A stretch of 64,000 nt of DNA from Pontibacter sp. G13. Its GTDB lineage: Bacteria > Bacteroidota > Bacteroidia > J057. The stretch spans positions 5,084,001-5,148,000 of the forward strand of contig NZ_CP134696.1 in the NCBI RefSeq assembly GCF_031851795.1, given 5' to 3'. Within the stretch, counting starts at the first letter, position 1; each line of letters begins with the position of its first letter. The translations under genes were made by a program, and so were the position numbers. Below the pieces are notes generated by a model. It made no database searches. It was not told the DNA's origin and worked only from the letters and a program-made list of their open reading frames with translations. Shown one piece after another: positions 24,773-28,476 of the stretch.

Positions 24773-25048
24773 AAATGTTGAGCGGTTTCCCCAATAACCG
24801 ATTTGGGTAGGGGGTGTTTTTGGAAAGGAAAAATGAATGAGCAGAAAGACCCTTTCTGATTGCAATATTGCTAATGGTTCGTGGAAGGTAAAATCTGATT
24901 TTTTCATTCAAATATGAAGACTTGGCGGCAATGGCTTGTTGGTCAGTTGCTTGGTGTTTTATTGTGCAATTAGGGATTTTGCAATAATTCCTGCATTCAT
25001 GGAAAAAAATCATAAATTGCTTGGTAAAGATTTTTACAACTAAAAATC

Positions 25049-26146
25049 ATGGCCACAAAACCCCTCTCTTCCTCTCGCAATGCACTCCATGGAAATCTGT
25101 ATGGATATTTCCTCCCCAAGGGGTTGGTTTCCTTCCAGATTGTTCAACATGGACCCCCCGAGCGTCCCATATTTGAAATTGTGAATATGGAGACCCACGT
25201 CGTTCCCGATGCCAAGAATCAATACTTTTTCCAATACAAACCCGGTGCCTTCACAAGCGAAGAAATCCAGGTGAGTTTTTCGGAAGGAGGATTCTTGCGC
25301 CGCATCAGCTCCAAGGTGGAGGATCACACTGGAGATATTCTGATGGGTGCTGGCGATTTGGGCCTTAAGACGATTGAGACCGTTTCCGGATTGGGCATGA
25401 AGACCCGGTCTGCTGGCCAGGGAAAGCTGGTTTGGAGTGGGACGATAGACCCTTTCGATGAAGAGGATCTTCGGAACCTGGATCGAGTCTTGAATGCGCT
25501 CTCTCCGACGTTGATGCTAGAGGTCCGTGTGCCCGATGATATGGCTCATGTGGAGACTGCTCCAGCTAGGCAGCATGTGAATGGGGTGTTCTGTAAACCC
25601 ATCGCGCTCGTTGAGTTGATTTTGCGCCAAGAATTTGGACACAGTATGGACCGGGTGCAGTTGCCTCATCCACACGCAGTTCATTTGATCGAGATTCCAC
25701 AGGGGAAATGGGTGAAGACGGAGTTCGTGCTTGAATGTAATGAGTTTGGGTATCCTGCCAAGGTGAGGATCGTCAAGCCCTCTACGGCAAAAGCGATTTC
25801 CGACCGAGTATTTGGTTTCCTTGGGAATGTGTTGGAATTGCCCTCCAAGCTCATTCAGCTGAGGATCACGATGGGCAATGCCTATACGGAAGAGTTGCGG
25901 CGGATGAATCAGCAACAGGCTCAATTGATCGAGTTGCAGAAGCATCAGCAAGCTTCGGGGGAAAGAGGGTTCATGGATTGGATTTCTGGTGTCTCCAGTG
26001 GACAAGAAGCACCAGAAAGGAATCAGCCCAAACCATCGATGCCTGAGGGGACGAATTTGGATGAGTTGATGCACAAGGTGAATGTGCTGGATGAACATTA
26101 TCGTGTGCTGCGTCATCGTGTCAACGAGCAGCGCGATCAAGGATAA
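25049..26146 (+). CDS. Hypothetical protein, 365 aa
   Basis: No family is recognised. There is no signal peptide or membrane span. Residues 1-110 are beta-rich, the middle contains a conserved-looking segment (LPHPHAVHLIEIPQGKWVKT), and the C terminus is a charged helical region (EELRRMNQQQAQLIELQKHQ, then a second helix near residues 335-360) that could form coiled coil. The gene stands alone on the plus strand. Its TAA stop lies inside the T-tract of the oppositely oriented tRNA-like operon terminator, so the two units are tightly packed. No promoter was identified. Confidence 0.65.
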   Translation: MATKPLSSSRNALHGNLYGYFLPKGLVSFQIVQHGPPERPIFEIVNMETHVVPDAKNQYFFQYKPGAFTSEEIQVSFSEGGFLRRISSKVEDHTGDILMGAGDLGLKTIETVSGLGMKTRSAGQGKLVWSGTIDPFDEEDLRNLDRVLNALSPTLMLEVRVPDDMAHVETAPARQHVNGVFCKPIALVELILRQEFGHSMDRVQLPHPHAVHLIEIPQGKWVKTEFVLECNEFGYPAKVRIVKPSTAKAISDRVFGFLGNVLELPSKLIQLRITMGNAYTEELRRMNQQQAQLIELQKHQQASGERGFMDWISGVSSGQEAPERNQPKPSMPEGTNLDELMHKVNVLDEHYRVLRHRVNEQRDQG

Positions 26147-26179
26147 AAAAACGGCAAGCATTCAATAGAGTGCTTGCCG
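26144..26179 (-). terminator. Terminator of the tRNA-like operon
   Basis: On the minus strand a perfect 9-bp stem (TGCTTGCCG/CGGCAAGCA arms at 26171-26179 and 26152-26160) is followed by a T-run (A-run 26144-26150 on plus). On the plus strand there is no T-tract, so it serves the minus-strand unit. Confidence 0.9.
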
Positions 26180-26192
26180 ATCAGATAGGATG

Positions 26193-26301
26193 CTGTAGGG
26201 GAAGGATTCGAACCTTCACGAGGGAGTTAGCTCTGGGAGTTTGTCCTCGGGTCCTCACCCGCGAGACCAGCGGGCATGGCTGCCAATTTCATCACCCTAC
26301 A
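26193..26301 (-). tRNA. tRNA-like gene with 40-nt variable region, copy 1
   Basis: Read on the minus strand it has acceptor arms TGTAGGG and CCCTACA (extendable to 8 bp by a C-G pair) and D-arm ATG..CAT around AAATTGGCAGC, which resembles tRNA-Leu. The anticodon stem CCCGC/GCGGG has loop TGGTCTC, and the T-arm is GAAGG-TTCGAAT-CCTTC. The triplet at the anticodon position is GTC (26265-26267, complement), but position 33 is G instead of the near-universal U. The variable region is 40 nt (26218-26257) instead of the usual 12-20 of class II tRNAs. The total is 109 nt with no encoded CCA. Isotype and function are open. Confidence 0.72.
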
Positions 26302-26322
26302 GGGTAATTAAGAAAAGATCTG

Positions 26323-26431
26323 CTGTAGGGGAAGGATTCGAACCTTCACGAGGGAGTTAGCTCTGGGAGTTTGTCCTCGGGTCCTCACCCGCGAGACCAG
26401 CGGGCATGGCTGCCAATTTCATCACCCTACA
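26323..26431 (-). tRNA. tRNA-like gene with 40-nt variable region, copy 2
   Basis: This copy, including its 21-nt spacer, is identical to copy 1 over a 130-bp period, so it arose by a recent tandem duplication or is kept identical by conversion. The anticodon-position GTC is at 26395-26397 (complement). It lies in the middle of the three-gene transcript. Confidence 0.72.
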
Positions 26432-26452
26432 GGGTAATTAAGAAAAGATCTG

Positions 26453-26561
26453 CTGTAGGGGAAGGATTCGAACCTTCACGAGGGAGTTAGCTCTAGGAGT
26501 TTATCCTCAGGCCCTCACCCGCGAGACCAGCGGGCATGGCTGCCAATTTCATCACCCTACA
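26453..26561 (-). tRNA. tRNA-like gene with 40-nt variable region, copy 3 (promoter-proximal)
   Basis: It is identical to copies 1 and 2 except for four transitions (26495, 26503, 26509, 26512), all inside the 40-nt variable region. The acceptor, D, anticodon and T arms are unchanged. Two of the four changes fall in a potential variable-region hairpin (CGGGT with ACCCG in copies 1 and 2, GCCTG here) and keep it paired through G-U wobbles. This pattern suggests that the folded RNA is under selection. It is the first gene after the minus-strand promoter. Confidence 0.72.
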
Positions 26562-26624
26562 GGGTTTTTCAGTATTCGGGGGATCGATTGTGAGATTGTT
26601 AATGTTTCCCCTGATCTGTTAATA

Positions 26625-26654
26625 CAAATGTATAGGATGCGGTTATTTTTTCAA
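26625..26654 (-). promoter_or_regulatory. Promoter of the tRNA-like operon
   Basis: On the minus strand TTG (26652-26654) and TACATTTG (26625-26632) are separated by 19 nt, a full match to the Bacteroidota consensus. Copy 3 begins ~64 nt downstream. Confidence 0.88.
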
Positions 26655-26741
26655 AGATTTATAAAAATTATCTCCATGCTTTGGGGTAATTGTAATTTTT
26701 GGCCGCTTTTCTTGATAGATTTTCAATTTTGAGTCAAAAAC

Positions 26742-27224
26742 ATGGCTGCGAATTCAGAGATTGATAAACTCGACCTTCAGATTCTCTCTATTTTGATGAG
26801 CGATGCTCAGATCCCCTACACGGAAATTGCCAAGCGATTGGAAGTTTCGGGAGGTACGGTTCACGTCCGGATGAAAAAGCTGATAGCAATGGGCGTAGTC
26901 AAAGGATCTCATTTAGAGATAGACCCCAGTCAGCTGGGTTATGATATTTGTGCGTTTGTGGGAATGTTCCTTGAGAAGGGGTCGCTCTACAATCGAATCG
27001 TTAAACAGCTGGAGGAAATTCCTGAAATTACTGAGATCCACTATACGACTGGGCGATATGGAATTTTCCTTAAGATCGTCAGTACCAATACTCGCGAGCT
27101 GAGGAGTATCTTGAATGACAAGGTACAGCCTATCGAAGGGATACAGCGTACCGAAACCTTCATCTCGCTTGAGGAGAGTATGAAAAGGCCTATTCAGATT
27201 CTGGGTGCTGCCCATAAGCGCTAA
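26742..27224 (+). CDS. Lrp/AsnC-family transcriptional regulator
   Basis: The 160-aa protein has the N-terminal winged helix-turn-helix (IDKLDLQILSILMSDAQIPY, TEIAKRLEVSGGTVHVRMKK) and a C-terminal RAM/AsnC ligand-binding domain (~70-150, with ITEIHYTTGRYGIFLKIVS). Lrp-type proteins form octamers or dimers that bind amino acids and regulate metabolism. The regulated genes are not evident. It is divergent from the tRNA-like operon and shares a ~180-nt control region with it, so autoregulation or control of that operon is possible. No plus-strand promoter was confidently found. Confidence 0.92.
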   Translation: MAANSEIDKLDLQILSILMSDAQIPYTEIAKRLEVSGGTVHVRMKKLIAMGVVKGSHLEIDPSQLGYDICAFVGMFLEKGSLYNRIVKQLEEIPEITEIHYTTGRYGIFLKIVSTNTRELRSILNDKVQPIEGIQRTETFISLEESMKRPIQILGAAHKR

Positions 27225-27253
27225 AGAAAATTGAATAAAATTGACGCGAGGAT

Positions 27254-27284
27254 TTGGAACTGTCCGAATTTGTCCACACTTTTG
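27254..27284 (+). promoter_or_regulatory. Probable promoter of trmD
   Basis: TTG at 27254-27256 and CACTTTTG at 27277-27284 have 20 nt between them, one mismatch from the TAnnTTTG consensus. The trmD start is ~28 nt downstream. Confidence 0.6.
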
Positions 27285-27312
27285 CGGCCGCGTTGAGAAA
27301 ACGTCAAGCGTT

Positions 27313-28002
27313 ATGAGGATCGACATTGTTTCGTGTGTACCTGCTTTGTTAGAGAGTCCACTCTCCCATAGCATCCTCAAGCGAGCCCAAGATAAGGGGT
27401 TGTTGGAGGTGCATGTACACGATCTGCGAGACTATGCCGAAGGCAAACAGCGCCAGGTTGATGACTATCCCTTTGGGGGTGGTGCTGGAATGGTGTTGAA
27501 GGTTGAGCCTGTTGCCAGATGTATTCGTGCCCTCGAGCAGGAGCGAGAATATGATGAGGTGATTTATTTGACGCCTGACGGAAAGACTCTTGATCAGTCC
27601 ATGGCAAATTCGCTTTCGATGAAAAAGAATTTGTTGTTGCTGGCAGGTCATTATAAGGGGTTGGATCAGCGTGCTCGTGACCTTTTCGTCACACAAGAGA
27701 TCTCAATAGGAGATTTTGTTCTTTCTGGTGGGGAACTTCCTGCATTAGTGTTGACAGATGCGATAGGCAGATTGTTGCCTGGTGTCCTGTCTGATGAGAG
27801 TTCTGCATTGTTTGATTCCTTCCAGGATAATTTGTTGGATCCGCCGATCTATACTCGTCCTGCTGAATTTGAGGGGCATGAAGTCCCTGAGGTTCTTCGC
27901 AGTGGCAATGGGAGTAAGATTGAGGCATGGAGAGAGCAAGCGGCACTGGATAAGACGCGTAAGCGTCGGCCGGATTTATTGCAGCGAGACGGAAACGTCT
28001 AG
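27313..28002 (+). CDS. trmD: tRNA (guanine-37-N1)-methyltransferase
   Basis: TrmD methylates G37 of tRNAs with G36 from S-adenosylmethionine, preventing frameshifts. The deep trefoil-knot (SPOUT) cofactor site is visible in [17 protein letters not shown] and [31 protein letters not shown] is another family signature. ATG 27313 ([10 protein letters not shown]) is the family start and gives 229 aa. The upstream in-frame region from 27241 is leader. It precedes rplS, as in many bacteria, but rplS has its own promoter here. The rimM and rpsP genes often linked to trmD are absent. Confidence 0.96.
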
Positions 28003-28070
28003 GCTTTTGGCTGGATTTCGAAGCTTGATTCGGAAAAAGGTAAAAAAGTTGAAAAAAGTTGCTGAGTTGT

Positions 28071-28101
28071 TTGGTCTTGAAAGTTGGATCGTATAATTTT
28101 G
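28071..28101 (+). promoter_or_regulatory. Promoter of rplS
   Basis: TTG at 28071-28073 (as TTTG) and TAATTTTG at 28094-28101 are spaced by 20 nt, a full consensus match. The rplS start is 25 nt downstream. Confidence 0.85.
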
Positions 28102-28125
28102 CAGTCCGTCAAACGAAAGGATATC

Positions 28126-28476
28126 ATGCAAGAGTTAATAAAGCTTATTGAAGCACCGCACATCCGGGAAGATATTCCGGAGTTTAAGGCGGGTGATACT
28201 GTCAACATCCACGTGCGGATTGTGGAGGGAGATAAGGAGCGTGTACAGCAATACAAAGGTGTTTGCTTGCAGCGTCGCAATTCTGGGGCATCTGAGACCT
28301 TTACGGTTCGTAAGATCTCTTCCGGAATCGGAGTTGAGCGTATCTTTCAATTGAACTCTCCGAATATTGCCAAGATTGATGTGTTGCGTCGCGGTAAAGT
28401 GCGCCGTGCTCGTCTCTTCTACTTGCGCGATAAGATTGGTAAGCAAGCTCGTATTAAGGAGCTCGTGAAGAAGTAA
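28126..28476 (+). CDS. rplS: 50S ribosomal protein L19
   Basis: L19 lies at the 30S/50S interface. The 116-aa protein has the family landmarks [50 protein letters not shown] and [23 protein letters not shown] 28126 (MQELIKLIE) is the normal start. The frame from 28084 overlaps the promoter. It follows trmD by 123 nt and ends at a double hairpin. Confidence 0.97.

Follow-up and report, generated by a model that had tools for sequence, protein, structure and literature searches.

Tandem tRNA-like genes in a Pontibacter genome represent a conserved RNA family with a possible role in asparagine synthesis

A 64,000-nucleotide stretch of the genome of Pontibacter sp. G13 (Bacteroidota, class Bacteroidia; contig NZ_CP134696.1, positions 5,084,001–5,148,000), hereafter the window, contains three tandem tRNA-like genes on its minus strand. 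They belong to a real RNA family that is conserved and has no match in Rfam; it is recurrently linked to a divergent AsnC-like regulator gene and co-occurs with GatB. Judged from its sequence, the RNA is a leucine-type class II tRNA body that joins determinants of AspRS to an acceptor end of the GatCAB type. The function that we favor, with a probability of about 0.55, is that of a non-decoding tRNA-like carrier for making asparagine under the control of AsnC, with AspRS doing the charging and GatCAB the amidation.

Detection and extent of the RNA family

The original prediction described three near-identical RNA genes between a promoter and a terminator, and reading of the sequence bears this out. 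All three copies have complete acceptor, D, anticodon and T arms and a 40-nt variable region, and their anticodon loop is TGGTCTC, with G33 and the triplet GTC, just as had been stated. The two copies at the lower coordinates are identical, and the first transcribed copy differs from them at positions 50, 53, 59, and 67, which lie without exception within the variable region, again as described. A fourth, diverged copy (71% identity) is located elsewhere in the genome. ARAGORN listed nine tRNA genes in the window, the three copies not being among them, and Rfam gave no match at E ≤ 1 between window positions 25000 and 28000 at relaxed thresholds.

The search of related genomes suggested in the original prediction recovered a covarying family. 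Clear homologues were found by DNA search of 60 genomes, comprising the window's own genome and its relatives. A covariance model gave matches of at least 77 bits in 49 of 295 genomes of the class, the next matches scoring 64 bits or less; this number is a lower bound, and at least 50 of 295 genomes carry the RNA once one further genome (G243) is counted, whose element scored low owing to its long variable arm and reached 93 bits on direct DNA search. Eight of the lower-scoring matches were fetched, and all eight are tRNA-Leu genes, the nearest canonical relatives of the family. Pattern scanning of named genomes yielded at least 119 loci; the 80 matches listed are from Bacteroidota, including Chitinophaga, Dyadobacter, Algoriphagus, Cyclobacterium, Fulvivirga, and Saprospiraceae. 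At 40 further loci ARAGORN called a single element, as tRNA-Pro, and the Rfam tRNA models had no match at the elements in the further loci searched. The sole Rfam match at elements outside the window was a sub-threshold one to a leader family, extending over the T arm and terminator (E 0.24).

Structure and covariation

In an alignment of 18 members, the 25 consensus pairs are standard in 99.8% of cells. Double-sided changes occur in 10 of these pairs (shuffle mean 3.3), the covariation score exceeded that of all 500 shuffles, and slid control structures were 50–60% paired. Selection on structure, as originally proposed, is thus strongly supported by covariation across the family. The elements comprise, in order, a 7-bp acceptor stem, U8 and G9, a 3-bp D stem with a Leu-like D loop, a 5-bp anticodon stem, the variable (V) arm, a 5-bp T stem, and G73. 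Model matches span 110–178 nt in 57 elements and 198 nt in the element of G243.

The basal stem of the V arm is commonly GRGG/CCYC, with covariation, and a bulge follows it. The 3-bp V2 stem covaries as well: 119 of 159 pairs were formed vs. 94.5 in shuffles, and none of 2000 shuffles reached the observed value, in a test that used 53 of 55 distinct sequences, two being skipped, with the motif length taken as the best of four tried. The internal loop is mostly GAYAAA or GGGAAA opposite CUAA, and the apical stem is variable in length and sequence. In many members the V arm is longer and contains a GGGUUGACCAC-type motif; the GACCA core of this motif occurs in 88 of 116 distinct long V arms of cellular origin vs. 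2 of 44 short ones. The window copies have the short form.

Placement of the four differences between the window copies on this structure assigns positions 50 and 53 to the bulge strand, position 59 to the variable base of GAYAAA, and position 67 to the apical triloop. All four are unpaired, so the argument that two of them preserve a hairpin by wobble pairing fails. Single-sequence folding, attempted on three members, did no better than shuffled sequences (z −0.81 to −1.20) and did not recover the full cloverleaf; the comparative structure was taken instead.

Identity elements and tRNA class

The acceptor end carries U1-A72 and G2-C71 in all 57 elements and G73 in 56 of them, and the anticodon loop has G34 in 55, U35 and C36 in 57, and C38 in 55. 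The strong aspartate identity determinants given in an excerpt of the literature are G73, G34, U35, C36, and C38 (PMC9976931), and the window copies carry all five. The U1-A72 pair of tRNA-Asn is what bacterial GatCAB recognizes, according to an excerpt of PMC4206432, and every element offers this pair.

The positions used in decoding appear to be relaxed in the family. Position 33 is U in 41 elements, G in 15, and C in one; the absence of U33 noted for the window copies, which have G33 in place of the canonical base, therefore holds for the window lineage and not for the family. Position 37 is U in 49 elements, C in five, and G in three, and is never A, while canonical decoding tRNAs have a purine at this position. 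The cloverleaf itself is canonical in the 18 aligned sequences, with a 7-bp acceptor stem and 5-bp anticodon and T stems; the tRNA models do not recognize it. As for the isotype, the class II body and Leu-like D arm are those of tRNA-Leu, for which A73 is the rule; the GUC anticodon and G73 are not. An aspartate triplet had been seen as being at odds with the Leu-like D arm. Both features are real, and the conflict disappears if a Leu-type body bears AspRS determinants. The RNA is best filed as a variant of tRNA-dependent amino acid synthesis and as no member of any tRNA isotype.

The tRNA-Asn gene was readable in 27 of the 30 element genomes searched, with U1-A72 in 24 and G1-C72 in three (G013, G159, and G203), yet the elements of these three keep U1-A72. 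G203 is also the only element genome with AsnA, and C34 replaces G34 in its element.

AsnC-like regulator and genomic neighborhood

The features of the RNA unit and of the regulator gene divergent to it are given in Table 1. The NCBIfam AsnC model gives the regulator 168.9 bits, short of the curated cut-off of 227 bits; the Lrp model gives 54.3 bits and the next model 73.5 bits. It matches AsnC_trans_reg and an HTH_AsnC-type domain of Pfam, and among solved structures the best relative is E. coli AsnC (2cg4, E 6.4e-34). By these measures it is nearer to AsnC than to the remaining regulators of the Lrp type.

Table 1. Features of the tRNA-like RNA unit and its divergent regulator gene in the window.
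Feature	Position	Strand	Basis
Bacteroidota-type promoter, TTTG-N19-TACATTTG	26625..26655	-	read in sequence
tRNA-like RNA, first transcribed copy, U1 to G73, 109 nt	26453..26561	-	covariance-model match, 125.6 bits, with a model built with this copy included
tRNA-like RNA, second copy, 109 nt, identical to third	26323..26431	-	model match, 124.7 bits
tRNA-like RNA, third copy, 109 nt	26193..26301	-	model match, 124.7 bits
Terminator: 9-bp hairpin followed by seven T	26145..26179	-	read in sequence
AsnC-like regulator gene, 160 aa, divergent to RNA unit	26742..27224	+	NCBIfam/Pfam models, structure relative

The neighborhood was surveyed at 41 loci, 40 fetched ones and the window. An Lrp/AsnC-type regulator gene is present at 28 of them and represents the only recurrent family, the next families occurring at six loci at most. 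At all 28 loci it is located upstream of the element, divergently oriented and 91–252 nt away; a 76-aa frame lies between the two at one locus (L086), and at another (L108) the regulator stands between two RNA copies, 141 nt from the second. Among the named genomes an AsnC-like frame accompanies 74 of the 119 loci fetched, being divergent and within 263 nt in all 74; the other 45 include some in which the element is near the edge of the fetched DNA, making them unjudgeable, and others without AsnC.

The promoter of the window unit is of the TTTG-N19-TACATTTG type, which we take to be that of the phylum Bacteroidota. The pattern TTTG-N15-21-TANNTTTG was found in 32 of 92 distinct intergenic regions between asnC and the RNA, vs. 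1.4 in dinucleotide shuffles. A AAATATTT motif is present in 49 of the same 92 regions vs. 8.0 in dinucleotide shuffles. It is a possible AsnC operator, and was not found in the upstream region of the window unit.

Two further observations concern the neighborhood in the window. A 365-aa frame (25049–26146, plus strand) adjoins the RNA unit and occupies the same place in three close relatives; Pfam and NCBIfam gave no match to it at E ≤ 0.001. The AsnC-like gene is followed by trmD, encoding the tRNA G37 methyltransferase, and rplS (27241–28473, plus strand), an order common to several close relatives.

Co-occurrence with GatB and asparagine synthetases

Gene content was compared in 80 chosen genomes, 41 with the RNA and 39 without. 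The former group derives from 55 known element genomes (49 from the class sample and six more), of which 40 were used and 15, all at most 95% complete, were dropped; the 40 RNA-negative genomes were hand-picked, not random, and all at least 97% complete. G243, noted as borderline before the test, was shifted to the group with the RNA after the 93-bit match on its DNA. The fast search may miss long forms in the genomes without the RNA, of which only single stretches were re-examined.

AsnRS is encoded in all 80 genomes, and GlnRS in 27 of 41 genomes with the RNA and 23 of 39 without. Presence of GatCAB was judged from GatB alone, which was found in all 41 genomes with the RNA, the window's own included, vs. 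17 of 39 without. All 30 genomes lacking GlnRS encode GatB, required there for Gln-tRNA. Among GlnRS-positive genomes GatB is present in 27 of 27 with the RNA vs. 1 of 23 without (Fisher 2.6e-13, relatedness not removed). If G243 is left unmoved, the counts become 40/40 vs. 18/40 and, for GlnRS-positive genomes, 26/26 vs. 2/24. In each of the three families in which both states occur (f1, f42, and f47) GatB tracks the RNA, with a chance of 1/840; the RNA-negative genomes of these families encode AsnA (G008), AsnB (G162), both (G060), or neither (G095). An AsnC-like gene (E ≤ 1e-30) is present anywhere in 40 of 41 genomes with the RNA vs. 16 of 39 without; the curated AsnC cut-off was passed in none of the 80.

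The sole GlnRS- and GatB-positive genome in which no element was detected, G031, has a GatB-AspRS fusion. At its locus (L276, 3407–8124) gatA is followed by a gene for a 1106-aa protein with an N-terminal GatB and a C-terminal bacterial-type AspRS, and AsnRS and GlnRS are present in this genome.

E. coli-type AsnB (NF006949) is encoded in 0 of 41 genomes with the RNA vs. 11 of 39 without, AsnA in 1 of 41 vs. 7 of 39, and either of them in 1 of 41 vs. 14 of 39. Both are missing from ten of the 23 GlnRS-positive genomes that lack the RNA, so there must be other ways to do without AsnA and E. coli-type AsnB. The broad AsnB family (TIGR01536) was also tried as a discriminator and did not separate the two groups.

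Viral copies

The RNA pattern was found in 65 viral contigs (L299–L363) of up to 326 kb. Matches to the model reach 61.6–103.2 bits in 64 of them, one being cut at its 3′ end, and the element of the remaining contig is cut after 48 nt. Viral copies are nearly always of the long form; many are located inside tRNA arrays, some together with tmRNA. The 51 distinct viral sequences have varying acceptor stems, with U1-A72 in 47, A1-U72 in two, and G2-C71 and G73 in 49 each, two truncated sequences being counted as misses (49 are complete); their GTC triplet was forced by the search pattern. Searches of the fetched viral pieces with tblastn revealed no AsnC, GatA, GatB, or AspRS. The carriers are likely phages of Bacteroidota, and frames at two viral loci resemble, by eye only, helicase, primase, and nuclease genes.

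A perfect palindrome of at least 8 nt stands beside the GACCA motif in 25 of 33 distinct viral V arms (8% in shuffles), for example, in L303, L309, and L310; among cellular V arms this was seen in 12 of 90 (5% in shuffles). The viral palindromes represent several unrelated sequences and could let two RNAs pair.

Proposed function

In the mechanism we favor, the AsnC-like protein would control the RNA unit in the way E. coli AsnC controls the divergent asnA. AspRS would read the GUC anticodon, C38, G73, and G2-C71 and load aspartate, which GatCAB, reading the U1-A72 pair absent from bacterial tRNA-Asp, would then amidate to asparagine on the RNA. Asparagine would be released or handed on, thus feeding AsnRS; release is the weakest step of this scheme, having no enzyme linked to it. 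Such a chimera would let an AspRS that need not accept tRNA-Asn supply GatCAB. Because asparagine carried on a GUC-bearing RNA would enter aspartate codons, decoding features are expected to be relaxed or lost, as at position 37 and, in the window lineage, at position 33; the large V arm may also keep the RNA off the ribosome, and the RNA probably never decodes. The non-standard role suggested in the original prediction accords with the V arm structure, the lack of A37, the lineage-specific loss of U33, the AsnC linkage, and the GatB co-occurrence, and its non-decoding part stands as a prediction. The observation as a whole was partly confirmed, and its interpretation partly supported. In broader terms, and at even odds, the RNA would be a recyclable RNA coenzyme of primary metabolism, namely, an ex-decoding tRNA that serves as an AspRS/GatCAB platform for free asparagine, has its own AsnC-like regulator, and is carried by large phages as an auxiliary metabolic RNA gene.

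Several points weigh against asparagine synthesis on this RNA, for which aspartylation and GatCAB amidation are predicted from sequence. G1-C72 and G2-C71 are strictly conserved in bacterial tRNA-Asp, and G1-C72 is described as crucial for aspartate identity, positioning the 3′ end in E. coli AspRS (PMC9976931, excerpt). All 57 elements have U1-A72 in place of G1-C72, and charging by AspRS could be weak. Since 24 of the 27 readable tRNA-Asn also have U1-A72, a non-discriminating AspRS and tRNA-Asn could do the same job. One element (in G176) lacks both G34 and C38, and its genome has no AsnC-like gene. The genomes compared are related and chosen, not random, and 14 of the 41 element genomes (G033-type) have no GlnRS and need GatCAB for Gln-tRNA anyway. 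Broad AsnB-family genes (TIGR01536), which could make asparagine, are present in 75 of 80 genomes and in 38 of the original 40 element genomes, being absent only from G002 and G176. At 13 of 41 loci there is no AsnC beside the RNA, three of these being additional loci in genomes where another locus is linked to it. Inspection of 14 synthetase loci (eight asnA and six asnB) revealed no neighboring AsnC, and no release enzyme is linked to the RNA among the 41 loci surveyed.

The main rival is a regulatory RNA using the same enzymes: charging by AspRS, perhaps with amidation by GatCAB, or occupation of these enzymes would report or limit aspartate and asparagine flux, with AsnC setting the RNA level. 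Such an RNA would be expected to show these determinants, the AsnC linkage, and the GatB co-occurrence as well; slow unassisted release of asparagine would be more in keeping with a sensor than with a bulk carrier, and a V arm whose internal loop is conserved, often together with an apical motif, is what a binding site would have. However, the depletion of E. coli-type AsnA and AsnB and the near-perfect co-occurrence with GatB are more directly expected of biosynthesis, and three tandem copies with a fourth in the genome suggest that the amount matters. We regard this explanation as possible, though clearly the less probable of the two.

Some toxins read anticodons of this kind, with GU in the anticodon loop. 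A decoy that is bound or cut by such a tRNA-targeting toxin or nuclease, shielding tRNAs in cells and likewise in phages, would fit the nearly invariant G34-U35 and the phage copies inside tRNA arrays. It leaves the invariant U1-A72, G2-C71, and G73, the AsnC linkage, and the GatB co-occurrence unexplained, and is improbable.

Still fainter is the case for a reading based on two features that SerRS uses on tRNA-Ser and tRNA-Sec, G73 and a long V arm (PMC7609411, excerpt): the conserved GUC with C38, GatB, and AsnC would be unexplained, and the nearest canonical relatives, in all eight cases fetched, are tRNA-Leu. An ordinary or decaying tRNA, a pseudogene missed by standard models through its inserted V arm, is just as improbable in spite of the complete cloverleaf and the relationship to tRNA-Leu, because class-wide covariation and conservation rule out decay, U33 is lost in 16 of 57 elements, position 37 is never A, and a distinct structure is conserved in the V arm.

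Relation to known systems and implications

Asparagine synthesis on tRNA-Asn is already known from Bdellovibrio, Deinococcus, and Thermus (PMC4206432, excerpt). As proposed for the RNA, aspartate is loaded there by AspRS and amidated by a GatCAB that reads U1-A72, and the likeness extends to an occurrence in genomes that mostly lack AsnA and E. coli-type AsnB. In contrast to that pathway, in which AspRS accepts tRNA-Asn, the carrier in the window family is a separate RNA with an aspartate anticodon, a huge V arm, an apparently non-decoding nature, and an AsnC-like regulator to itself; a non-discriminating AspRS is not required. The E. coli asnC-asnA pair likewise has an AsnC-type regulator divergent to a gene that makes asparagine, a role predicted for the RNA; AsnC activates asnA, and asparagine lowers this activation (PMC8707732, excerpt). 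Here the partner is an RNA gene rather than a synthetase gene, and regulation is predicted.

The allo-tRNAs and selC* tRNA-Cys are also bacterial tRNA-like genes with long variable arms found by sequence search; the excerpt available describes them as having tRNA-Sec-like longer acceptor and anticodon stems (PMC7609411). In the window family the acceptor stem has 7 bp, and the anticodon and T stems have 5 bp each; only 49 of 57 elements could form an eighth acceptor pair, at −1/73. The likeness of the RNA to another extra-translational tRNA lies in altered positions that disfavor the ribosome: the non-decoding tRNA-Gly of Staphylococcus, which serves cell-wall synthesis. That tRNA differs in carrying another amino acid, in its ordinary class I shape, and in being a peptidoglycan donor.

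Bacteroidetes are among 18 genera reported to have AsnRS, GlnRS, and GatCAB without an asparagine synthetase, for which synthesis on tRNA-Asn was proposed (PMC4206432, excerpt); elsewhere, 12 of 14 Bacteroidetes are listed as having GlnRS and no GatCAB (PMC3927822, excerpt). No paper on an RNA of the present kind was found among the open-access papers listed, in searches that also covered orphan GatCAB in Bacteroidetes and GatB-AspRS fusions. The family adds an RNA that escapes the tRNA and Rfam models applied here, and it offers a specific chimeric set of identity elements for testing. If the proposed function is true, the RNA, though derived from a tRNA, would be devoted to producing an amino acid and not to decoding. 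This would offer an answer to a published puzzle, posed in the excerpted part of PMC4206432, of why some bacteria with AsnRS and GlnRS, Bacteroidetes included, keep GatCAB without an asparagine synthetase, and the puzzle becomes testable in cultivated relatives such as Dyadobacter and Chitinophaga.

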